A DNA stretch of 64,000 nt from Halolamina sp. CBA1230. GTDB lineage: Archaea; Halobacteriota; Halobacteria; Halobacteriales; Haloferacaceae. The position numbers were made by a program, and so were the translations under genes. Of this stretch, positions 3,581-14,630 are shown piece by piece; the first letter of the stretch is position 1; every line of letters begins with the position of its first letter. The DNA lies in NCBI RefSeq assembly GCF_002025255.2, contig NZ_CP054587.1, positions 682,001 to 746,000 on the forward strand. The letters run 5' to 3'. A model generated the notes under the pieces. The model worked only from the letters and a program-made list of their open reading frames with translations. It had not been told where the DNA came from and did no database searches.

Positions 3581-3596
3581 TTTCGGCAAGCCTAAA
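3581..3596. promoter_or_regulatory. TTTCGG-N4-CCTAAA palindrome in divergent promoter
   Basis: TTTCGGCAAGCCTAAA differs by one arm base from the perfect TTTAGG-N4-CCTAAA palindrome at 12300. It sits between divergent genes, 25 bases before the ATG at 3621 and 76 before the ATG at 3505. The CCTAAA arm also lies where a TATA element for the plus-strand gene would be. An operator overlapping the core promoter is possible. Confidence 0.35.
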
Positions 3597-3620: not shown

Positions 3621-4322
3621 ATGAGCGACTACACGCTCGCGGACGTGAGCGTCGTGATGGGGAGCTACAACGAGGAAGAGGCGATCGGGCCGGTGCTCGA
3701 TGAGATCGACGAGGCCACCGACGGGGAGGCGGAAGTGGTGGTCGTCGACGGCTCCAGCGACGGCACCGCCGACATCGCGCGGGACCACGGCGCGACCGTG
3801 ATCGAGCAGGAGCCCCAGGGGTACGGGTACGCGGTGTGTAAGGCGCTGGTGTCGGCGACCAACCCCATGCGGATCACCACCGACTGTGACGGGACGTACC
3901 CGATGGAGCGCATCCCGGATTTCCTCGAACTGGTGAACGAGGGGTACGACGTGGTCAGCGGCGACCGCCTCTACCACGGCGCGGAGACGATGCCGACGAT
4001 GAACCGCTTCGGCAACTACGCCTTCGCGGGGCTGTCGAGCGTGCTCTCGGGGGAGTATCTTCACGACGTGACGACGGGGATGCGCGCCTACCGCGAGGAC
4101 GTGATCGAGGAGATCACCTGGACCGAGAACACCGGCCTGTCGGCGGAGCTGCTGATCCGGCCGACGATGCGGGGGTACGAGATCCGCGAGGAGCCGATCG
4201 CCTACGACGAGCGGCTGGGCGAGACGAAGCTGGACCCGTTCTCGGGCGGCGCGGAGATCGCAGGGTCGATCCTCCGGGTGTGCGCCCAGGAGCGCAAGCG
4301 GCAGTTGTCGAGTCTGTTCTAG
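3621..4322 (+). CDS. GT2 family glycosyltransferase (dolichol-P-sugar synthase type)
   Basis: Protein of 233 residues, all within one GT-A fold. The N-terminus (SVVMGSYNEEEAIGPVLDEI), VVVDGSSDGT and the metal-binding TTDCDGTYP match polyprenyl-phosphate glycosyltransferases of family GT2 (Dpm1, DolP-Glc synthase, AglD/AglJ-like). Such enzymes move a sugar from a nucleotide donor to dolichol phosphate on the inner membrane face, often for N-glycosylation. There is no C-terminal membrane domain, so this is the short type. The start is set by ATG 3621, with a purine-rich GAGGAG eight bases upstream and a TATA-like CCTAAA 27 bases upstream. A T-rich tail (TTCGTTTCTTCG) after the stop may terminate transcription. 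Confidence 0.85.
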   Translation: MSDYTLADVSVVMGSYNEEEAIGPVLDEIDEATDGEAEVVVVDGSSDGTADIARDHGATVIEQEPQGYGYAVCKALVSATNPMRITTDCDGTYPMERIPDFLELVNEGYDVVSGDRLYHGAETMPTMNRFGNYAFAGLSSVLSGEYLHDVTTGMRAYREDVIEEITWTENTGLSAELLIRPTMRGYEIREEPIAYDERLGETKLDPFSGGAEIAGSILRVCAQERKRQLSSLF

Positions 4323-4826: not shown

Positions 4827-7028
4827 CTACGCCGAAACCGCTTCGACCGTCGTGTTCGCGAACTGCTCGGGCGGCGACGGCCCCAGCCCCGCGGGCACGC
4901 AGCGATCCGGCACCGGACAGCGCTCCCGGGTCGCCGACAGCGCGCGCACCTCGTCGCCCGACGTATCGATCGGGAACACGAGCTGGTAGCTGAACCCCGT
5001 GCTCGGGCCGGTGGAGACGAACACCGTGACCGTGAGCTCGTCGCGGTTCTCCACGTCGAAGCTCCCCGCGCTCCGGACCCCCTCGCCGGCGAGGCGGGCG
5101 CTGGTCTCGTTGACCGTCAGCGTCAGCCGGAGCGCCCCCTCGCTGGCGTTCGCCGCGGCGTAGGTCTGCCCACCGTCGCCGCCCGCGCGGATCGACACCG
5201 ACTCGGCACCCTCGGGGACGCCGACCGCGGCGTCCAGCCGGACCGACTCGCCGGAGACGCGCTCGACCGGGCGGAGTTCCGCGGTCACCTCTTCGCCGTC
5301 GACGGGGTTCCACGCGCCGCGCATCACGTACCGCCGGAGCTCGTGATCCGGGTTCGCGGCGGCGACGTCGAGTTCGTCGTAGTCACCCAGCGCGTACAGC
5401 GACGGCCCGTCGAAGTCGGGATCGTTCCGAACCGCCTGGAACGGGTGGTTCAGCCACGGGCCGTACACCGGCGTGAGGAACGTCAGCGTCTTCTCGTCGG
5501 TCTGGTTCCCGCCGATGGCGGCGTTCCCCATCGAGAGCCCGCCTTCCTCCTCGAACGGTTCGTAGGCGGCCGCGAGCTCCTCGCTGATACCCGCGTTGTG
5601 CTCCAGCGGGCGTTCCGCGACGTCCGCCGCGACGGGGGCGGCGACGGCCGCCGCGACGATCACGACGGCGAGCGCGACCCGACTGGCCGATAGCGCGTCG
5701 GGGAGTCGCGGCGCAGTGAAACCGCCCAGTCGGTCGGCAGCCCACACCACGGCGACCGCGCCGAACACCGCCGTCGGGACGAGCACGTCGTAGTGGTAGT
5801 ACGGGCCGAGGCTGTGGATCAGCCCGTCGTCCTGCACGGTGAGCGCGCCGAGGATGTTGAAGTTCCCCCAGAACGCGACGTTGCCCGCCGCGATGGAGAC
5901 GAACATCCCCGCGACGACCGCGCGACGGCCCACGAGCGCGGCCGACGCGCGCTGGCTCGCGTCCCGGACGCGGCCGAGAACGGCCGAGCCAGCCGTCGCG
6001 ACGACGCCCGCAGCGGCGAGCGCGCTGCCGAGGATCCCCATCGCCACCCACTCAGTGAACAGTTTGGAAAGCACGCGGCGGTTCGACTCGATTCCGAGTT
6101 CGAGCGTGTAGTTCTCCTCGTGGCCGAGGATCTCGCGGTGGCCGAACCCGGGGCCGTCCTCCGGCGCGAACGCCTGGTACGGGAACACGAACGGCTCACC
6201 CGTGACGAGGACGTTGTACCCCAGCGCGACCGCGACGCCGACCATCCCGAGCCCCGCGGTCAGGAGTCGGCGGACGAACAGGTCGCGCTGTCGGTCGGTC
6301 ACCTCCTCGAACGGCGTTCGCCACGCGCCCGAACGGAGGAGCGTGACGACCGCGTGGAGGATGAAGGGCGACGCGAACAGCACGGCGGTGTACGGCCGCG
6401 CGAAGAAGGCGGTCGCGATCGCCGCGCCGGCGACCGCCGCCAGCCGCCGGCTCCCGGTCCGCTCGCCGCGGAGGTACGCGACCGCGAAGCAGAGTTCGAA
6501 CGCCGCCGTCGCCGCGTAGGGGAGGTACACCCCGGAGTGGACCAGGAACAGCGGCGACGCGAGTACGAGCACGCCCGCGACGGCGCCGACCCGCCAGTCG
6601 TACAGTTCGCGGGCCAGCGCGGCCGTGCCGGCGACGACTGTCGCCGAGATGCCGGCGAGCGCGATCGGGTAGCCGCCGAGAACGCGGCCCAGCGCGAACA
6701 CCGCCGCGGGAACGGGCTGGTACTTCGAATAGAGCCCCTGCTCGCTCACGACGAAGAACCACGGGTGGAACGGCCCCTCGACCGGCGGCTGGAGGAACAG
6801 TTTCCCCGAGAGGAGCATCTCGGCCTGCTGGAGGTAGACGCCCTCGTCGTGATTGATCGAGTGGTACGGGAACACGCGGGTGGCGACGAGGAACGAAATC
6901 ACGGCGGCGACGAGCGCGAGCAGGAGGATCGCGATCCGACCCCGGTCGAGACGGTCACGAGCGGCGTCGACGCCGGCGCGAACCGTCCCCGTGGCGGCGC
7001 GTGAGTCGGTGGAGGGCTGCCCGGTCAT
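4827..7028 (-). CDS. GT39/ArnT-like membrane glycosyltransferase
   Basis: Protein of 733 residues. After a soluble N-terminus, a membrane helix (about 32-50) leads into NHDEGVYLQQAE, whose Asp61-Glu62 corresponds to the conserved acidic pair in the first external loop of GT-C enzymes of the PMT/ArnT/GT39 type. About ten more hydrophobic segments follow up to about residue 470. A soluble domain of some 250 residues at the C-terminus probably faces outside. Such enzymes transfer a sugar from a polyprenyl-phosphate donor to protein or lipid outside the membrane. It is the last gene of the minus-strand operon and its ATG directly follows the stop of the ABC ATPase gene. The acceptor is unknown, and the link with iron uptake is unusual. 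Confidence 0.8.
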   Translation of the reverse strand: MTGQPSTDSRAATGTVRAGVDAARDRLDRGRIAILLLALVAAVISFLVATRVFPYHSINHDEGVYLQQAEMLLSGKLFLQPPVEGPFHPWFFVVSEQGLYSKYQPVPAAVFALGRVLGGYPIALAGISATVVAGTAALARELYDWRVGAVAGVLVLASPLFLVHSGVYLPYAATAAFELCFAVAYLRGERTGSRRLAAVAGAAIATAFFARPYTAVLFASPFILHAVVTLLRSGAWRTPFEEVTDRQRDLFVRRLLTAGLGMVGVAVALGYNVLVTGEPFVFPYQAFAPEDGPGFGHREILGHEENYTLELGIESNRRVLSKLFTEWVAMGILGSALAAAGVVATAGSAVLGRVRDASQRASAALVGRRAVVAGMFVSIAAGNVAFWGNFNILGALTVQDDGLIHSLGPYYHYDVLVPTAVFGAVAVVWAADRLGGFTAPRLPDALSASRVALAVVIVAAAVAAPVAADVAERPLEHNAGISEELAAAYEPFEEEGGLSMGNAAIGGNQTDEKTLTFLTPVYGPWLNHPFQAVRNDPDFDGPSLYALGDYDELDVAAANPDHELRRYVMRGAWNPVDGEEVTAELRPVERVSGESVRLDAAVGVPEGAESVSIRAGGDGGQTYAAANASEGALRLTLTVNETSARLAGEGVRSAGSFDVENRDELTVTVFVSTGPSTGFSYQLVFPIDTSGDEVRALSATRERCPVPDRCVPAGLGPSPPEQFANTTVEAVSA

Positions 7029-8270
7029 CTACGCGGCGGGGTACCAGGCGAGGGTGTGGTCGGCGACGAGGCGGACGCTCACGCGCTCGCCCACGTCAAC
7101 CTCCTCGGCGTGGTTGTGCAGACAGCGCACCACGGGGCCGTCGTCGAGTTGGACGTGGTAGACGAAGGAGGGCCCGGTGTACTGGCGGCGGACGACTTCC
7201 CCGTCAGCGGCCGGGGGCGACTGGCGGCCCCCGTCGCCGTCGGCCACGGCCGTGCCGCCGTCGGCGCTCGGCCTGACAGCTTCTGTCTCGGCGGAGATGG
7301 GGCCGGCCTCGCCGTCGACGGGCGAGAGTCGGAGGTCGTCGGGGCGGACCAGCACGTCCACCTCGGCGCCGACGTACTCGTCGGTCACCCCCTCCAGCAG
7401 GTCGCGGCCGTAGGAGCCGATCACCGTGTCGACGGAGCTGTCGGTGATCTTTCCGGGGACGAAGCTCGCCTGCCCGAGGAACGAGGCGACGAAGCGGGAC
7501 TCGGGATGCTCGAACAGCGACTCGGGGCTGCCGACCTGCTCGATCCGGCCCTCGGACATCACCGCCACGCGGTCGGAGATCGACAGCGCCTCCTCCTGGT
7601 CGTGGGTGACGGAGACGGCGGTGACGCCGGCCTCGTTCAGAATTCGGGTCACCTCCTCGCGCATCTCGACGCGCAGGGCCACGTCGAGGTTCGAGAACGG
7701 CTCGTCGAGCAGCAGTACGTCGGGTTCGGGCGCGAGCGAACGGGCGAGCGCGACCCGCTGGCGCTGGCCGCCGGAGAGATCCGTCGGCGAGCGGTCGCCG
7801 TAGCCGTCGAGCCCGACGAGATCGAGCAGGTCCTCGACGCGCTGCTGTGCGGCGTCGCCCTCGGGATCGTCGAGGCCGAACGCGACGTTCTCCGCCACCG
7901 AGAGGTGGGGGAACAGCGCGAACTCCTGGAACACCATCCCAACGTCGCGCTCCTCCGGCGGCACCTCACGACCGTCCCCGGCGACGGTCTCGCCGCCGAC
8001 ACGGACGGTCCCCTCGGTCGGCGATTCGAGGCCGGCGATGGTCCGCAGCGTCGTTGTCTTCCCACAGCCCGAGGGGCCGAGTAGGGTGAGTAGCTCTCCC
8101 TCCCGCACCGCGAGATCGACGCCGTCGACCGCCGTCTCGCCGGCGAACTCCTTGGCGACGTTCGAGAGTTCGAGCACCGTGTCGGCGTCGTCGTCGACCG
8201 CCGCGTCCGCCTGCTCGGCCGCCCGCTTCGCCGCTCGCTCGTCGGTCGTGGGTGTGTATTCGTTGCTCAT
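7029..8270 (-). CDS. Iron(III)-type ABC transporter ATP-binding protein
   Basis: Protein of 413 residues. The nucleotide-binding domain (about 30-270) contains Walker A GPSGCGKTT at 65-73, the signature LSGGQRQRVALARSL, Walker B VLLLDEPFSNLD and the switch His in SVTHDQEEAL. A C-terminal TOBE-like beta domain follows (about 285-410), including VRPDDLRLSPVDGEAG and QYTGPSFVYHVQLDDG. This layout is that of FbpC/PotA-type importers. A low-complexity acidic linker lies near residues 330-350. ATG 8270 overlaps the stop of the permease gene as ATGA, showing tight coupling. With its partners it would energise uptake of ferric iron or another small ion; the substrate is inferred from family resemblance only. 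Confidence 0.92.
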   Translation of the reverse strand: MSNEYTPTTDERAAKRAAEQADAAVDDDADTVLELSNVAKEFAGETAVDGVDLAVREGELLTLLGPSGCGKTTTLRTIAGLESPTEGTVRVGGETVAGDGREVPPEERDVGMVFQEFALFPHLSVAENVAFGLDDPEGDAAQQRVEDLLDLVGLDGYGDRSPTDLSGGQRQRVALARSLAPEPDVLLLDEPFSNLDVALRVEMREEVTRILNEAGVTAVSVTHDQEEALSISDRVAVMSEGRIEQVGSPESLFEHPESRFVASFLGQASFVPGKITDSSVDTVIGSYGRDLLEGVTDEYVGAEVDVLVRPDDLRLSPVDGEAGPISAETEAVRPSADGGTAVADGDGGRQSPPAADGEVVRRQYTGPSFVYHVQLDDGPVVRCLHNHAEEVDVGERVSVRLVADHTLAWYPAA

Positions 8271-9934
8271 TTATCGCGTCCCTGAACGAGGAGGGGGATC
8301 ATCGAGAGCCCGGACACCACCACCAGCACCAGCGCCGGCAGCGCCGCCCGGCCGTAGTAGCCGCCCTCCTGAACTCGCCAAATGTACGTTACCAGTGTTG
8401 TAAACCCTGTCGGGTGGAGGATCAGCGTCGTGTCCAACTCCTTCATCGTCGTGAGGAACACGAGCGCCGCGCCCGCGAGCACGCCCGGCGCGATCAGCGG
8501 CAGCGTCACCCGCCGGAACACTCGCCGCGGGGGTTCGCCCAGCACGCGCGCGGCCCCCAGCAGCGAGGGATCGACGCCAAGCACCGACGACCGCGTCGCG
8601 CCGACCGCCTGCGGCAGGAACCGCACGACGTAGGCGAACACGAGCAGCGGGAGCGACTGGTACACCGTCCGGGCAGCCGCCGGGCCGAACCACTCCGCCA
8701 ACTGATTGCTGCTGAAAAAGACCAGCGAGAGCGCGAGCACGACCCCCGGCATCGCGTAGCCGAGATACGTCGCCCGCTCGGTCAGCCACGCGAACGTCGC
8801 CCGGGAGCGCCCCGAGTAGTACGCGACGGGGATCGCCAGCGCCAGCGTCGCGCCCGCCGCCAGCGCGGCGACGTAGACGGAGTTGAGCGCGAACCCCCAC
8901 TCGAACACGCGGCCGCCGATATCGTACTCCAGCGCCTCGGCGCGGAGGAACCACATCGTCAGCACACCCACCGGGAGCGCGAGCGTGAACGTCGACACCA
9001 GCGCGGGCAGCAGCATCGCCACCCAGCGCAGGCGCCCCAGCGAGATCATCGCCGTCGACGACGCTGCCGCGCCGTAGCCGGAGTCCTCGCCGCTGCCGAT
9101 CCGGGACTCCAACGCGACCACGACGGCGGTGACGGTCAACAGCTGGAGGGAGAGCAGCGTCGCGTTGTTGCGGCCGTCACCGAAGCTGCCGAGTTCGACG
9201 TATATCATGCGTGTGAACACGTCGTACTGCATGATCTGTGGCGTCCCGAAGTCCGAGAGCGCGTACAGCGCGACCAGCAGCGCGCCCGCGGTCACGGCGG
9301 GCAGGATCTGTGGCAGGATCACCCGCCGGAACGCCGAGAGATAGCCGACGTTGAGCGTGCGTGCGGCCTCCAGTTGCGTCTCGTCGAAGGAGAGCAGCGC
9401 GGCGCGGGCGGTAAGGAACACGTACGGGTAGACAAAGAGCGTGATCACCAGCGCGGTGCCGCCCAGCCCGTACACCTCCGGGATCCCGATCCCCCACGGT
9501 TCGAGCGCGTCGGCGAGCGCACCCTCGGGACCGAACGCCGAGACGTACGCGAACGCGCCGACGTAGCTGGGGATCACCAGCGGGAGCGCGATGGCGACGG
9601 TCCAGAACCGCCGGAACGGCAGGTCGGTCTGCACCGTCAGCACCGCCAGCGGCACGCCCAGCAGCACCGACGCGACCGTGACGACGGCGACGAGCGCGAG
9701 GCTGTTGAGGAACACGTCGGTCGAGGTGTCCAACAGCGCTCGCGCCTCGGCGAGGGGCACCTCGCTGGCACGCAGCAACAGCCAGAGCAGCGGCGACAGC
9801 ACCGCGGCTGCGATGGCTCCCGAGAGCAGGACCAGCGGCGTCGAGACGCCGTCCTCGTCCAGCCCCAGGAACCGACGCGCGATCAGCCGGCGGAGCCCCC
9901 CCGACTCACGAGTGGTGTCGCCGACGGTGCCCAT
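8267..9934 (-). CDS. Iron(III)-type ABC transporter permease (fused double permease)
   Basis: Protein of 555 residues with about twelve membrane helices in two homologous halves, as in FbpB-type permeases where both transmembrane domains are fused in one chain. Each half has an EAA-like loop that docks to the ATPase: EAARTLNVGYLSAFRRVILPQILPA in parts around residue 205, and GAARVLGEPPRRVFRRVTLP near 460. It starts at ATG 9934, overlapping the TAA of the binding-protein gene by one base, and ends in an ATGA overlap with the ATPase gene. The substrate is probably ferric iron, by similarity of the whole cassette. Confidence 0.92.
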   Translation of the reverse strand: MGTVGDTTRESGGLRRLIARRFLGLDEDGVSTPLVLLSGAIAAAVLSPLLWLLLRASEVPLAEARALLDTSTDVFLNSLALVAVVTVASVLLGVPLAVLTVQTDLPFRRFWTVAIALPLVIPSYVGAFAYVSAFGPEGALADALEPWGIGIPEVYGLGGTALVITLFVYPYVFLTARAALLSFDETQLEAARTLNVGYLSAFRRVILPQILPAVTAGALLVALYALSDFGTPQIMQYDVFTRMIYVELGSFGDGRNNATLLSLQLLTVTAVVVALESRIGSGEDSGYGAAASSTAMISLGRLRWVAMLLPALVSTFTLALPVGVLTMWFLRAEALEYDIGGRVFEWGFALNSVYVAALAAGATLALAIPVAYYSGRSRATFAWLTERATYLGYAMPGVVLALSLVFFSSNQLAEWFGPAAARTVYQSLPLLVFAYVVRFLPQAVGATRSSVLGVDPSLLGAARVLGEPPRRVFRRVTLPLIAPGVLAGAALVFLTTMKELDTTLILHPTGFTTLVTYIWRVQEGGYYGRAALPALVLVVVSGLSMIPLLVQGRDK

Positions 9935-11130
9935 TACAGGACGCCGACCTCACGCATGAGTTCGACCGTCGGCCCGATCTCGGAGAGCTTCGACAGGTCG
10001 AACTCGGGCGGGTTGAGCTCGTCGATACGCGGGAGGTCGCCCACCGGCGGCACGCCGGGGATCATCGGGTAGGCGTACGCCCGAGTGGCGAAGTACTCCT
10101 GGGCCTCCGCCGAGAGCAGGTGGTGGACGAAGTTCCGTGCCAGCTCCTGCTGCGGGCTCGGCTCCAGCACCGCGGCGCCGGCGACGTTGATCAGCGCGCC
10201 CGCGTCGCCGCTGGTGAACGCCAGATCGAGCGGCGCGTTGGGGCGTGCGGCCTGCACGCGGAGCGCGTAGTAGTGGTTCGCGAAGCCGGCCTGGAGTTCG
10301 CCGTCCGCGACCGCGTTGGAGACGAAGAACTCGTTGGCGTACTCGGTGATGCCGGCGTCGACCATCTCCTGGAGCCACTGCCGGGTGGCCTCCTCGCCCT
10401 CGGTGATCCGCATCGCGGTGATGAACGCCTGGAACGCGCCGTAGGTGGGCGCCCAGCCCATGTTCTCCGCGACGCCGGATCCGGGCAGGTCCATCACGTC
10501 GTTCGGGATGTCGCTCTCGTCGAGCGCGTTCGTGTTGTACGGGATGGCGCGGGCACGGCCCGCGGTGCCGACCCACTCACCGTTCGGATGGAACTCCTGA
10601 GGCACTGGGTCGGTGATCTCGTCGGGGAGTTCGAGGGTGAGATCCTCGGCCGCGACGGCCGCGAGCGAGCCGGCGTCGACCGACCAGAACACGTCCGCGG
10701 GCGTCGCCGACCCCTCGGTGATGATCGTGTTCGCGGCGTCGGCGGTGCCGGAGAGCCGCGGGGACGCCGAGAAGTCGGGGTAGATGTTCTCCAGCTTGTT
10801 GATCAGGTCACGGTAGAGCCCACCCTCGCCGCCGCCGAGGTAGATGGTGAGCTCACCCTCGAGATCCGGCAGCTCCTCGATCCGGGTGCCGCCGATCTCG
10901 TCGCGGCCCTGCGCGAGTACGCCGGAGCCGCGGAACTCCTCGAACTCGGCGGAGCCGATGTTGTCGCCGCCACCGCCGCCCGGCGCGTCGGTCCCGGTGC
11001 CGTCGGCCGGCGTTTCCTCGGTTTCGGTGGTGTCGTCGCCGCCACCACAGCCGGCGATTCCGACGAGCCCGGCGCTCGCCAGCGTTCCGAGCAGTCGGCG
11101 GCGGCGCTTGGAGGTCGGCTCCTCAGTCAT
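9934..11130 (-). CDS. Iron(III)-type ABC transporter substrate-binding lipoprotein
   Basis: Protein of 398 residues. The N-terminus has a multi-arginine stretch (SKRRRRLLGTL), a hydrophobic segment and the lipobox GIAGC, consistent with Tat-type export and lipid anchoring as is common in haloarchaea. A Thr/Glu/Gly-rich spacer follows the Cys. The mature part looks like the FbpA/FutA class: LTIYLGGGEGGLYRDLINKLE near the start, ADVFWSVDAGSL, IPYNTNAL, and NHYYALRVQ, where a Tyr pair matches the usual ferric-ion ligands. ATG 11130 is chosen over an upstream in-frame codon; it overlaps the end of the GT75-like gene by eight bases, so both are in one transcript. Confidence 0.9.
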   Translation of the reverse strand: MTEEPTSKRRRRLLGTLASAGLVGIAGCGGGDDTTETEETPADGTGTDAPGGGGGDNIGSAEFEEFRGSGVLAQGRDEIGGTRIEELPDLEGELTIYLGGGEGGLYRDLINKLENIYPDFSASPRLSGTADAANTIITEGSATPADVFWSVDAGSLAAVAAEDLTLELPDEITDPVPQEFHPNGEWVGTAGRARAIPYNTNALDESDIPNDVMDLPGSGVAENMGWAPTYGAFQAFITAMRITEGEEATRQWLQEMVDAGITEYANEFFVSNAVADGELQAGFANHYYALRVQAARPNAPLDLAFTSGDAGALINVAGAAVLEPSPQQELARNFVHHLLSAEAQEYFATRAYAYPMIPGVPPVGDLPRIDELNPPEFDLSKLSEIGPTVELMREVGVL

Positions 11131-12286
11131 CGGCGGGCACCTCCACACGGTCCGCAGCGGGCGGTTCGAGCGCGTCGAGACAGTCGATCCAGTCGTTCAT
11201 GTACGTACCACAGTAGTTCAGGAACTCGCCGTTGTTCCACTCGTCGAACTCGCCGGCCATCAGCGCGTCGGCCATCGACGCGAACGCCTCGCGGTAGGAG
11301 CTCGCGCCGACGGCGGCGTTGTCGATCACTTCCCAGACGTGTTCGTTGAGTTCGAGCCCCGCGACCTCGTTCTGCAGGTCGTCGAACGTCGACCGCGGCG
11401 CCTTGTTGTGCTCACACAGCGGGCCGCCGTTGTACACCTGCTTGTCCAGCACGTCGCAGGCGCGCTTGAGGAACAGCCCCGACCAGATGTCGTCGAACCG
11501 ACCCACGTCCCAGCGGTTGTCGTCCATCGGGAGCTGGTAGAACGCCGGGATCACCTCGCGGCGGAACGCGAGGTTCATCGAGCAGACCGTGAGGTACTGC
11601 CCCTCGGCGGCGACGAAGTCCTCGCCGAAGTCGTCGGCGCTGGTCCGGGTCTGGGCCTGCCCCTGCAGGTCGCCGTCCATCAGGATCCGCACCGCGTCGA
11701 GGTCCGGCACGTTGGTCCAGAGCCCCTGGGAAGCGACGACGTCGTCGACGTGTTCGGTGTCGCGCTCGAGCTCCTCGTCCATCGCCGCGTAGGGGTAGCC
11801 ACGCGGGTAGAGGTCGCCGTCGGCGTCGTCGAGCACGTTCACCCACGACTCGTCGGAGGCGCGGGACTCGATCTCGCCCTCGTAGGCGAGGTTCCGCATG
11901 TGCGTGCCGAAGAAGTCCTCGTCCGCGTGGGGCAGCGTGTCGTCGTCGATGAACACGCCGTAGTCGAAGCGCTCGTTGGCCCACATGTACAGCAGGCCGA
12001 ACGAGGTCTGTGCGTGGCTGGCATCGGGAATGAGGTGTGAGTAGTCGCTCACGCCCTGCTCGGCGAACCACTCCTCTCGGGCGGTGCCGTCGAACACGGC
12101 GCCGTCGACGTCGAGCTCGTCGAGCATCGCCGCCATCTCGTCGGTGTCACAGAACTCCTCCGTGACCAGCACGACGAACAGGCGGTCGGTGTCGAACCCG
12201 TGCTCGCGGGCGTTCGCGACGTACTCCTCCATACACTCGTACTCCCGTATCGTGGGGACGATCACGCAGATGTCCTGCTCACTCAT
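11123..12286 (-). CDS. Reversibly glycosylated polypeptide / GT75-like protein
   Basis: Protein of 387 residues resembling the plant RGP / UDP-arabinopyranose mutase family (GT75), annotated in archaea as alpha-1,4-glucan-protein synthase. Evidence is the N-terminal ICVIVPTIREYECMEEY, the FIDDDTLPH motif with Asp114-116 (the DDD nucleotide-sugar site), and the conserved VCSMNLAFRREVIPAFYQLPM and RFDDIWSGLFLK region. RGP proteins bind nucleotide sugars, self-glycosylate at an Arg, and some interconvert UDP-arabinose ring forms. It is soluble, with no signal. It is the first gene of the operon that continues into the iron-type ABC transporter and the GT39-like enzyme. An iron-box-like palindrome lies 14 bases before its ATG. 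The activity and sugar are not known. Confidence 0.8.
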   Translation of the reverse strand: MSEQDICVIVPTIREYECMEEYVANAREHGFDTDRLFVVLVTEEFCDTDEMAAMLDELDVDGAVFDGTAREEWFAEQGVSDYSHLIPDASHAQTSFGLLYMWANERFDYGVFIDDDTLPHADEDFFGTHMRNLAYEGEIESRASDESWVNVLDDADGDLYPRGYPYAAMDEELERDTEHVDDVVASQGLWTNVPDLDAVRILMDGDLQGQAQTRTSADDFGEDFVAAEGQYLTVCSMNLAFRREVIPAFYQLPMDDNRWDVGRFDDIWSGLFLKRACDVLDKQVYNGGPLCEHNKAPRSTFDDLQNEVAGLELNEHVWEVIDNAAVGASSYREAFASMADALMAGEFDEWNNGEFLNYCGTYMNDWIDCLDALEPPAADRVEVPADD

Positions 12287-12299
12287 TGGGCGTCGATTG

Positions 12300-12315
12300 T
12301 TTAGGGACTCCTAAA
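12300..12315. promoter_or_regulatory. TTTAGG-N4-CCTAAA operator-like palindrome
   Basis: TTTAGGGACTCCTAAA is a perfect 6-bp inverted repeat with a 4-base spacer, 14 bases before the ATG of the GT75/iron-transporter operon. One arm sits at the expected TATA position for a leaderless transcript. The half-site TTAGG/CCTAA recalls DtxR/IdeR iron boxes, although those classic sites have a longer spacer. Repression by an iron- or manganese-dependent regulator is an inference. Confidence 0.5.
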
Positions 12316-12402: not shown

Positions 12403-14010
12403 TCAGAGCCGGGCGTCGATCGCGTCCGCAGCCTTGAGCGACAGCGCGGCGATGGTGAGCGTGGGGTTCATCGCGCCGCCGGTGACGAACACGGAACTGC
12501 CGGCGATGGAGAGGTTCGCGAGGTCGTGCGTGCGGAGGTCCGGGTCGACGACGCTCGACTCGGGGTCGGTGCCCATCCGGGTCGTCCCCATGTGGTGGTA
12601 CGCGGGGCCCGTCGAGTCCGGGCCGACGACCCACTCGATGTCCGCACCCATCTCCGAAAGCACCGAGCGCTGGATCTCGTTCGCCCGCTCGATCGTCCGG
12701 CGCGTGCGGTCGTCGAGCGACCAGACCACCTCGGGCACGGGGTTGCCGTGGTCGTCGGTGCGCGAGCGGTCGAGCGTGATGCGGTTCTCCGCACGCGGGA
12801 ACTGCTCCACGAGTGCGCCCATCGCGACGTGGTTGCCGTACCCCGCCCGGATCTCCTCGAGCAGGTCGTCACCGAAGCTATCGGCGTCCATCGCGATGTC
12901 CGACGGCGCGGGGCCGGCGTAGTTGAGACACTCGAGTTTGATCGCCCCCCGGCTGTCGTCCTCGCGGTCGTAGAACTGGTGGCTCTCGGTGGTGTTGAAG
13001 CCGACGTGCTTCTGGCGGGTGCGCTCGTCCAGCCGGCCGCCGACGCCCGCGAACAGGTGGTCCATGAAGTACCGACCCACGGCTCCGGAGCTGTTGGCCA
13101 GCCCGTCGGGGTACTGCTCGCTCTCGGAGAGCAGCAGCAGGCGCGGCGTCTCCACGCCGCCGGCGGCGAGCACGAACTCGTCGGCTGCCTGCCGGTACGT
13201 CTCGCCTTCGGGCGTGACGTACACCGCGGCGGTCACGCGTTCGCCCGACCCATCGTGTTCGAGTTTCTGGACCGGCACCTCGTCGATCACGCGGGCGCCC
13301 TCCTCCTGGGCGCTGTCGACGTGCCGGAGCGCGTGGTACTTCGCGCCCGAGGGACAGACCGGCCGGCAGGTGCCGTACCCCACGCAGGCGCTCTCCCCGT
13401 CCGTGGGCTCGGAGTTCCGGGCGTTCGGGACGGAGTGGGTGGTGATCTCCAGCGCCTCGCAGGCTTCCGCGAACAGCGAGTCGCTGTACGACGGCGGGAA
13501 CGCGGGCAGTGGGTGGGGCTGATCCCGCGGCGGCGCGAAGGGGTTGTCCGAGGCGCCCGCGACCGCGAGCGCCTCCTCGGCGGCCGCGTAGTAGGGACGG
13601 AGATCCGCGTAGTCGATCGGCCAGTCCTCGGCGACGTCCAGCTCCGAGTCGAGACGGAAATCCTGCTCGTGGAGGCGCATCACCATCCCCTGCCAGTGGA
13701 GCGTCGAGCCGCCGACGCCCTTCACCCGGGCGGCGTTGAGCGGGTAGTACCGGCCGCCGCTGGAGGTGTACGCGTCCCGCGGGCCGCCCATCCCCCAGAT
13801 CGGCGTGTCGTCGCCGGGACGGAGGTGGTTCTCCATGCGCTCCTCGCGCTTCTCGGGGTCGAACCGCGGGCCGGCCTCGAGCACGACCACTTCGTGCCCC
13901 GCCGCGGCGAGGCGGTCGGCCACGAGCGCGCCTGCCGGGCCCGCGCCGACGATGCAGACGTCGGCGTTCTCGGTCGGTGTTCGGTCCGTCGACGACTGCG
14001 TCCCGCTCAT
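12403..14010 (-). CDS. GMC-type FAD oxidoreductase (gluconate 2-dehydrogenase large-subunit type)
   Basis: Protein of 535 residues. The N-terminus has the FAD dinucleotide fold VCIVGAGPAGALVADRLAA and VVVLEAGP. GVGGSTLHWQGMVMRL and a Cys-containing segment (CVGYGTCRPVCPSGAKYHALRH) follow. The C-terminus carries HHMGTTRMG and the second flavin-contact region FVTGGAMNPTLTIAALSLKAADAI. This is the GMC (glucose-methanol-choline) fold as in membrane-bound sugar/alcohol dehydrogenases. ATG 14010 overlaps the stop of the subunit-3 gene as ATGA, so the two form a complex and operon. The longer open frame to 14514 is a shadow. Substrate, and the electron acceptor in the membrane, are unknown; no cytochrome subunit is adjacent. 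Confidence 0.88.
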   Translation of the reverse strand: MSGTQSSTDRTPTENADVCIVGAGPAGALVADRLAAAGHEVVVLEAGPRFDPEKREERMENHLRPGDDTPIWGMGGPRDAYTSSGGRYYPLNAARVKGVGGSTLHWQGMVMRLHEQDFRLDSELDVAEDWPIDYADLRPYYAAAEEALAVAGASDNPFAPPRDQPHPLPAFPPSYSDSLFAEACEALEITTHSVPNARNSEPTDGESACVGYGTCRPVCPSGAKYHALRHVDSAQEEGARVIDEVPVQKLEHDGSGERVTAAVYVTPEGETYRQAADEFVLAAGGVETPRLLLLSESEQYPDGLANSSGAVGRYFMDHLFAGVGGRLDERTRQKHVGFNTTESHQFYDREDDSRGAIKLECLNYAGPAPSDIAMDADSFGDDLLEEIRAGYGNHVAMGALVEQFPRAENRITLDRSRTDDHGNPVPEVVWSLDDRTRRTIERANEIQRSVLSEMGADIEWVVGPDSTGPAYHHMGTTRMGTDPESSVVDPDLRTHDLANLSIAGSSVFVTGGAMNPTLTIAALSLKAADAIDARL

Positions 14011-14603
14011 TCTGGCCCCCGCTGATCCCCGCGGTTGTCCGTCACTGCGGGGCCCTGCTGGTAGCTCGCGGTCCCCCCCGGATACCCCGGCGGATTCTCG
14101 AGCCCGGCCAGCGACGCACCCGTCGGCGACGCGTAGAGGCCGAACAGCAGATCGTTCACGAGGTAGTAGCGCACGCGCTGGTCGTCGTCGCCGCCCGGGT
14201 CGGGATCCGCCACGTCGACGGCCATGTAGGAGAGCAGCTCCTCCCGCGTTCCCGGGCCGAGGTCGGCGTATCGCTCGCTCTCGAGGTTCTCGGCGTACTC
14301 GTTCAGCGTCCGGATCGCGTCGAGCATCCCGCGCCCGTGCTCGGGACGCTCGCGGACGCGGGGTCGAACCCACTCCGCGACGAACTCGCCGACGTTCTCC
14401 ACCTCGCTCGGGTAGAGCACGGTCGCCAGCGCGACCAGCGTCTCGAGGTCGTCCTCGGCCAGTTCCGGATCGGTGTCGTCGCGGTCGCTCGGCGTCGCCG
14501 CCGCCTCGCCCCACGAATCGGCGTCCGGTGCGGAACAGCCGGCGGTGCTGCCCATTCCTACCGCCGACAGCGCCGCCAGCGCGTCCCGTCGAGTCAGCCG
14601 CAT
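14007..14603 (-). CDS. Gluconate 2-dehydrogenase subunit 3 family Tat protein
   Basis: Protein of 198 residues. The N-terminus TRRDALAALSAVGMGSTAGC combines a twin-arginine motif, a hydrophobic core and a lipobox Cys. The mature domain (about 50-170) is a helical module of the gluconate 2-dehydrogenase gamma-subunit (subunit 3) type, with LVALATVLYPSEVENVGEFV and YYLVNDLLFGLYASPTG. In bacterial enzymes this subunit carries the Tat signal that exports the signal-less flavoprotein piggyback, which suits the signal-less GMC gene immediately downstream. A TTTAGG element about 25 bases before ATG 14603 is the probable promoter core. Confidence 0.85.
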   Translation of the reverse strand: MRLTRRDALAALSAVGMGSTAGCSAPDADSWGEAAATPSDRDDTDPELAEDDLETLVALATVLYPSEVENVGEFVAEWVRPRVRERPEHGRGMLDAIRTLNEYAENLESERYADLGPGTREELLSYMAVDVADPDPGGDDDQRVRYYLVNDLLFGLYASPTGASLAGLENPPGYPGGTASYQQGPAVTDNRGDQRGPE

Positions 14604-14614
14604 CTATCGCGAGG

Positions 14615-14630
14615 ATTTGGCCAGCCTAAA
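14615..14630 (-). promoter_or_regulatory. Promoter core with partial TTTAGG-type palindrome
   Basis: On the minus strand TTTAGGCTGGCCAAAT starts about 27 bases before ATG 14603. TTTAGG sits where the TATA box should be, and the second arm matches the perfect palindrome at 12300 in only four of six positions. It may be a weak copy of the same operator, or just a TATA variant. Confidence 0.3.

Follow-up and report, generated by a model that had tools for sequence, protein, structure and literature searches.

The DNA considered here is a 64,000-nucleotide stretch of the archaeon Halolamina sp. CBA1230 (the window; C1:682001-746000 of a genome of 3,465,332 bases), in which genes for a transporter of the ferric-uptake type share one operon with genes for sugar transfer, headed by a conserved palindrome. 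The five genes of the operon occupy the minus strand and, as an earlier sequence-only reading of the window had noticed and the coordinates confirm, they overlap or abut at all four junctions. The first gene (11123-12286) encodes a homologue of the GT75 (RGP-type) nucleoside diphosphate (NDP)-pyranose mutases and overlaps by 8 bases the second (9934-11130), which encodes an FbpA-like ferric-binding lipoprotein. The sequence TAATG at 9932-9936 is common to the binding-protein gene and the gene for a fused permease (8267-9934), just as ATGA at 8267-8270 is common to the genes for the permease and for an ATP-binding cassette (ABC) transporter ATPase with a TOBE domain (7029-8270). The stop of the ATPase gene (7029-7031) directly adjoins the start (7028) of the last gene (4827-7028), which encodes a membrane glycosyltransferase with a predicted GT-C fold and a C-terminal DUF7846 region.

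An exact copy of the palindromic box TTAGGN4CCTAA (TTAGGNNNNCCTAA; 12301-12314, minus strand) lies 14 bases upstream of the first ATG of the operon, and similar boxes with one mismatch stand before genes on either side. One of these (3582-3595, plus strand) is 25 bases upstream of the ATG of the convergent neighbor of the operon, a gene for a GT2 dolichyl-phosphate hexose transferase (3621-4322, plus strand). The other (14616-14629, minus strand) is 12 bases upstream of the ATG of a gene for a gluconate 2-dehydrogenase subunit 3-like protein (14007-14603, minus strand; hereafter subunit 3), with what appears by eye to be a twin-arginine and lipobox-like leader, which is followed by a gene for a GMC-family oxidoreductase (12403-14010, minus strand; Pfam GMC_oxred_N and GMC_oxred_C).

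Conservation of this arrangement was surveyed in 195 genomes of the order Halobacteriales, from 66 genera. The mutase was found in 137 of these genomes and 45 of the genera by a search of the order, and all 40 genomes with a mutase match in a phylum-wide search of 294 genomes belong to the same order; the closest named relatives of the window mutase are Halolamina proteins (90-92% identity), and the genome of Haloferax volcanii contains an RGP-family match. Gene order was examined at 160 loci (80 places in 78 genomes, plus 80 named loci kept out of 246 relatives), 149 of which have distinct mutase DNA and supply the distinct-locus counts used below. The binding-protein gene follows the mutase gene on the same strand at 146/149 distinct loci, an arrangement that exceeds chance, and a GT-C gene lies downstream of the mutase on the same strand at 145/149, with the complete five-gene order of the window present at 71/149. 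The commonest order (47 of the 160 loci) has mutase, binding protein and GT-C, then hexose transferase, GMC oxidoreductase and subunit 3 on the opposite strand, and then the permease; therefore, mutase, binding protein and GT-C remain together with the permease elsewhere. The operon forms the core of a module that is conserved within the Halobacteriales. The sequence-only reading had remarked that a gene order unique to this genome would speak against its proposal; the order is widely shared, and the pairing of sugar-transfer genes with ferric-uptake genes to which it drew attention is real and conserved over the distinct loci.

The three exceptions to the order of mutase and binding protein are two solitary mutases and locus L165, where a boxed mutase has no binding-protein match in the next 2.2 kb. 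The solitary genes (L092:8748-9893 and L094:6257-7411) are additional mutase copies, with 61% and 59% identity to the window mutase, that stand outside the module without a binding-protein gene or a box, in genomes that also hold a copy of the module. Another genome with the module encodes a distant GT75-like protein (G049:C2:1525556-1526296; 31% identity over residues 83-343), and elsewhere (G058, G118, G176, L069 and L110) mutase or GT-C genes appear broken or split in two, owing either to sequencing error or to decay. Subunit 3 or the GMC oxidoreductase was detected at 108 of the 160 loci. At 20 of the 160 (e.g., L036, L037, L038, L059, L067 and L121), the subunit 3 gene sits between those for GT-C and hexose transferase in a region where no GMC gene was detected; subunit 3 may therefore have a different partner.

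Across genomes, presence was scored at E<=1e-60 for GT-C, E<=1e-70 for the hexose transferase and E<=1e-35 for the binding protein. GT-C was present in 138 of the 195 genomes (the 137 with mutase plus G133, a 77%-complete genome) and the hexose transferase in 139 (the same 137 plus G133 and G152), so that all three sugar genes are common to 137 genomes; G092, G006, G040 and G031 are single genomes without all three, in genera that otherwise have the set. A binding-protein match was found in 177/195 genomes, including every one of the 137 with mutase.

The first protein of the operon matches Pfam RGP (PF03214) with 58.3 bits, against a cut-off of 23.8, and its residues were compared with those of MtdL (PMC9937993). 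The DDD motif, arginine and Mn-histidine of MtdL (D109-111, R159 and H287) correspond to D114-116, R162 and H293 of the window protein, and MtdL D195, S228, R257 and D260 correspond to D195, S236, R263 and D266, all of which are invariant in 81/81 mutases. In MtdL, R159 is the auto-glycosylated arginine and H287 coordinates Mn (PMC9937993, excerpt). The structure model of the window mutase has a predicted local distance difference test score (pLDDT) of 80.7, with values <50 at residues 158-169, 192-214 and 296-304, so that it is low around R162 and D195; Foldseek places MtdL as its best match (query template-modeling score 0.75-0.78), followed by rice UAM2 (0.63). Positions that select the base are mixed, with Pro11 (placed by eye) as in the plant enzymes and Ser90 as in MtdL. 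By residues and modeled fold, the first protein is assigned to GT75 and is predicted to act as a pyranose-furanose mutase.

The transporter has the composition of an FbpABC-type system, namely a ferric-binding-like protein with a tyrosine pair (Pfam SBP_bac_8), a permease in which two BPD_transp_1 stretches are joined in a single protein, and an ATPase with ABC_tran and TOBE_2 domains. The best PDB relatives of the binding protein are ferric-binding proteins (FbpA; best E 2.8e-54), and nearly all of the listed matches bind iron. Residues Y97, Y230, H286, Y287 and Y288 are invariant in 79/79 binding proteins, and the tyrosines matching Y287 and Y288 are, we assume, Fe ligands in the ferric-binding relatives. 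We infer from these likenesses that the transporter imports Fe(III), and it is possible that it imports sugar-chelated iron, as the sequence-only reading had suggested. An N-X-S/T sequon is absent from 24/79 binding proteins, and the lipobox is followed by a short linker (median 22 residues, 18% Ser+Thr); therefore, no fixed glycosylation site is evident on the binding protein. O-glycosylation of a Thr-rich linker was also considered and found unsupported, given this length and composition.

The GT-C protein matches DUF7846 with 264 bits, its only Pfam match at E<=0.01, and in NCBIfam its only match, to the LA_3751 family, is below cut-off. With no match to a PMT-type family in Pfam or NCBIfam, the last gene was rejected as a member of GT39 (PMT) proper. 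Its model (pLDDT 84.8) has the GT-C fold, with Z scores of 24.8 to OST, 23.5 to PMT, 23.3 to AglB, 21.1 to ArnT, 17.1 to AftD and 16.4 to AftA; Z scores of about 20-25 to OST, PMT, AglB and ArnT span about 370-450 residues, and few structural matches run past about model residue 590, which leaves the C-terminal DUF7846 part hardly covered. Residues D61 and E62 in the first outer loop are kept in 77/79 proteins and may be catalytic acidic residues, by analogy with other GT-C enzymes. The sequence-only label GT39/ArnT-like finds no support as the name of its family but is apt for the fold, which includes ArnT. The hexose transferase scores 395 bits with NF041391 (cut-off 375) and has no strongly hydrophobic segment (Kyte-Doolittle maximum 0.82), and subunit 3 scores 29 bits with PF13618 (cut-off 23.4).

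Evidence on control of the module comes from the box, which was sought upstream of module genes at the 149 distinct loci with one mismatch or fewer accepted, over 150 bases (300 for hexose transferase and permease) and excluding genes too close to a locus end. It was present upstream of the mutase at 147/149 loci, of the binding protein at 131/146 and of the hexose transferase at 114/116. Subunit 3 has a box in 62 of 65 cases as the head of a unit and in 8 of 30 behind another module gene, and the permease has one in 45 of 46 cases as a displaced unit head and in 0/85 behind another module gene. Within 150 bases upstream, no box was found for the internal genes (ATPase 0/72, GMC 0/73 and GT-C 0/140), and in the window the binding-protein gene, which overlaps the mutase gene, has none of its own. 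Judged by position, the box is a mark of the heads of transcription units. A transcript split between the ABC and glycosyltransferase genes, which the sequence-only reading had said would count against its proposal, may do so in part, as judged from the boxes in relatives; transcripts are probably split there because the binding protein so often has its own box and the permease heads its own unit at 46 loci, and the split units apparently share one kind of control.

The 160 loci (3.10 Mb) contain 517 exact boxes, 444 of them near module gene starts, and over the same DNA the reversed pattern occurs once and each of eight palindromes with matching composition occurs 0-1 times, so chance was rejected as the source of the pattern. 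The other 73 exact boxes (loci L032-L191) lie away from any detected module gene. Among 4000 random 315-base windows drawn from these loci, with the module included, 192 held an exact box and 49 a one-mismatch box. Sixteen hexose transferases that are not beside a mutase were also retrieved, and a box lies within 300 bases in 15 of them, comprising 10/10 on the mutase contig at a distance of >40 kb, 4/5 on other contigs and the single one at a decayed locus (G152).

The box is also found beside other iron-uptake genes of Halolamina sp. CBA1230, whose genome has six exact copies, one being the operon head. An exact box is immediately upstream of a FecCD siderophore-type permease gene (L212) and another is upstream of a Peripla_BP_2 binding-protein gene (L215), with one-mismatch boxes by two more Peripla_BP_2 genes (L216 and L217); the L217 box falls inside the longest reading of its gene and is upstream only with a later start. 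The boxes of L211, L213, L214, L218 and L219 and the third box of L217 were left out of this tally. At L211:2476-2489 (G000:C1:52475), an exact box is six bases upstream of a gene for a thioredoxin-reductase-like oxidoreductase of 305 residues. A conserved palindrome at unit heads that is common to iron-uptake genes is what a DtxR-type regulon would have; the arms TTAGG and CCTAA resemble, as we take it, those of DtxR-type operators, and the genome holds seven matches to the DtxR family (PF01325), five of them over cut-off. The haloarchaeal DtxR-family iron regulon likewise has a regulatory signal upstream of iron-uptake genes, the 'ferR regulon signal' of Leyn and Rodionov (cited in PMC11349517, excerpt), but differs in that the box described here also heads glycosylation genes, a comparison that does not extend to the original regulon lists (Leyn and Rodionov). 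In H. mediterranei, the iron(III) binding-protein gene E6P09_12005 is repressed alongside siderophore genes (PMC11218638, excerpt); no link of this gene to the window protein is claimed.

The explanation that we favor, and consider reasonably probable, is an iron-starvation module, or regulon, that couples import of Fe(III) with the building of an extracellular glycan, linked to dolichol and possibly containing furanose. With ample iron, a metal-loaded repressor of the DtxR/SirR/TroR type would occupy the box at each unit head, and when iron is scarce all boxed units would be derepressed together. The FbpABC-type proteins, whose family and ligands are observed, would then import Fe(III), and the GT75 enzyme would convert NDP-hexopyranose to NDP-hexofuranose, as its residues and fold suggest. 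The GT2 enzyme, which satisfies its family model, would charge dolichyl phosphate with a hexose, and the GT-C enzyme, given its fold, would transfer sugar from such a donor to an acceptor outside the membrane, where subunit 3 and the GMC oxidoreductase, absent from some loci, may oxidize sugar. The glycan would probably serve the uptake system, because every genome found to have a mutase also had a related binding-protein gene, and the transporter was seen without a mutase. Among three ideas offered in the sequence-only reading, remodeling of surface glycans at iron scarcity is the best supported, since unit heads of glycosylation and transporter genes share the box, even that of a remote hexose transferase; the response to iron is predicted from the box. 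A bolder form of this proposal, which is tentative and on balance unlikely, is that haloarchaea make, chiefly under iron starvation, a special-purpose surface glycan, built on dolichol, containing furanose and perhaps oxidized extracellularly to an acid, that captures Fe(III) at the envelope and passes it to the FbpA-type lipoprotein, in a glycan-based route of iron acquisition beside siderophores.

Several observations weigh against the favored proposal. In nine genomes without a mutase, a close binding protein (E<1e-99) is present, with permease and ATPase adjoining in 9/9, and therefore the sugar genes are not strictly required for uptake. MtdL residues Q229, R289 and H292 are replaced by Met, Lys and Arg in the window mutase. 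One-mismatch boxes number 19 per strand genome-wide, fewer than the 31 per strand of the reversed control, and therefore what speaks for the two one-mismatch boxes of the window is solely their conserved position. Two exact boxes have surroundings that are not obviously related to iron, one between a DUF7260 gene and an open reading frame without a family (L213) and one flanked by a ferritin-like gene (at its 3' end) and an IS6 transposase (L214). Finally, Table 1 of a low-iron proteome of H. volcanii, which covers changes of at least 10-fold, includes no named glycosyltransferase or FbpA-like protein, as judged by names with gene numbers unmapped (PMC11349517, excerpt).

The regions of the nine mutase-less genomes have features of their own. 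No GT-C match was found near the transporter (0/9), and at least one exact box is present somewhere in 8/9. Two of them apparently contain decaying copies of the module, with a 51-residue mutase remnant (L226) or a hexose transferase gene and GMC fragments (L225) beside an intact transporter. In mutase-less genomes, too, a box-headed gene lies upstream of the binding-protein gene, either directly (L228:7537-8805 and L227:7738-9003) or further up (L221:12373-13800); two of these genes were read, and their products look secreted, have by eye a 'HAxHAxxY/HPHxEYW'-like motif and have no Pfam match. It is possible that this box-headed gene is a replacement partner for iron capture.

Other explanations account for part of these data. 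The sugar genes might act solely on the transport machinery, with the GT-C enzyme glycosylating the binding lipoprotein or that of subunit 3, to stabilize it or to hold it at the surface, and without a free or general glycan being made. Such a role would agree with the persistence of binding protein and GT-C together despite a moved permease and ATPase (47/160 loci) and with the lack of any mutase in a genome without a binding-protein gene, but it is unlikely in view of the binding proteins that have no sequon (24/79), the short linker (median 22 residues, 18% Ser+Thr) and the nine genomes with transporter and no mutase. Control might instead be shared without a shared task, if the glycan genes respond to low iron for another reason, such as envelope or biofilm adaptation, and adjoin the importer within a vertically inherited, iron-regulated island. 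We regard this as unlikely, even though hexose transferases >40 kb off on the same contig keep the box (10/10) and a transporter may be retained where the mutase is missing, since the adjacency of mutase, binding protein and GT-C survives rearrangement of the other module genes around them and since 137/137 mutase genomes have a binding-protein match.

The sequence-only reading had also allowed for a substrate other than iron, for which thiamine, a phosphonate or a sugar could be considered. The binding protein does have weak likeness to the NCBIfam models of 2-aminoethylphosphonate- and thiamine-binding proteins, but its scores of 32.4 and 31.4 bits are far under the cut-offs of 392.75 and 93.4. 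The closest solved relatives being FbpA ferric-binding proteins, the tyrosines being invariant in 79/79 and the box being common to siderophore-transport genes, such a substrate is highly improbable.

Several known systems are close to parts of the module. Like the FbpABC, FutABC and HitABC importers, the transporter has a binding protein, fused permease, TOBE ATPase and tyrosine pair; unlike them, it is joined with GT75 and GT-C genes, plus a boxed dolichyl-phosphate hexose transferase. The window mutase has the DDD motif, the arginine and the Mn-histidine in the same places, and the same overall fold, as MtdL and the plant UAM/RGP enzymes of GT75, whose known roles are in synthesis of antibiotics (MtdL) and plant cell walls (UAM/RGP) (PMC9937993, excerpt), but it lies in an iron-uptake operon and carries other residues at three positions where MtdL contacts nucleotide or sugar. 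The GT-C enzyme has the predicted fold of enzymes that use prenyl-phosphate sugars (AglB/OST, PMT, ArnT and mycobacterial Aft/Emb) and differs from them in that its sequence family is DUF7846 only. The hexose transferase resembles haloarchaeal HVO_1613 and AepG, GT2 enzymes that load sugar onto dolichyl phosphate (PMC9943897, excerpt); AepG is reported to have two C-terminal membrane spans and to be located in an aglB cluster (PMC9943897, excerpt), whereas the window enzyme lacks a strongly hydrophobic segment and lies beside iron-uptake genes.

No description of a ferric importer and a dolichol-sugar pathway under one iron box was found in the literature, in a comparison that left the main regulon papers outside it (Leyn and Rodionov, 2015; Schmid, 2011; Martinez-Pastor, 2017), and nothing on the operon was found in PMC3600143 (excerpt). 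Every component belongs to a known family, and their union under one kind of box would be the new element.

If the favored proposal is true, the GT75 furanose-forming enzymes and the dolichyl-phosphate hexose transferase would gain a place in archaeal iron physiology, and an iron-controlled extracellular glycan would be predicted across much of one archaeal order. In addition, if the hexose transferase is an orthologue of the enzyme described in PMC9943897 (excerpt), the module would supply a task for that enzyme. In this way, the conserved union of ferric-uptake and sugar-transfer genes at boxed unit heads suggests that haloarchaeal cells may change their surface sugar when iron is short.

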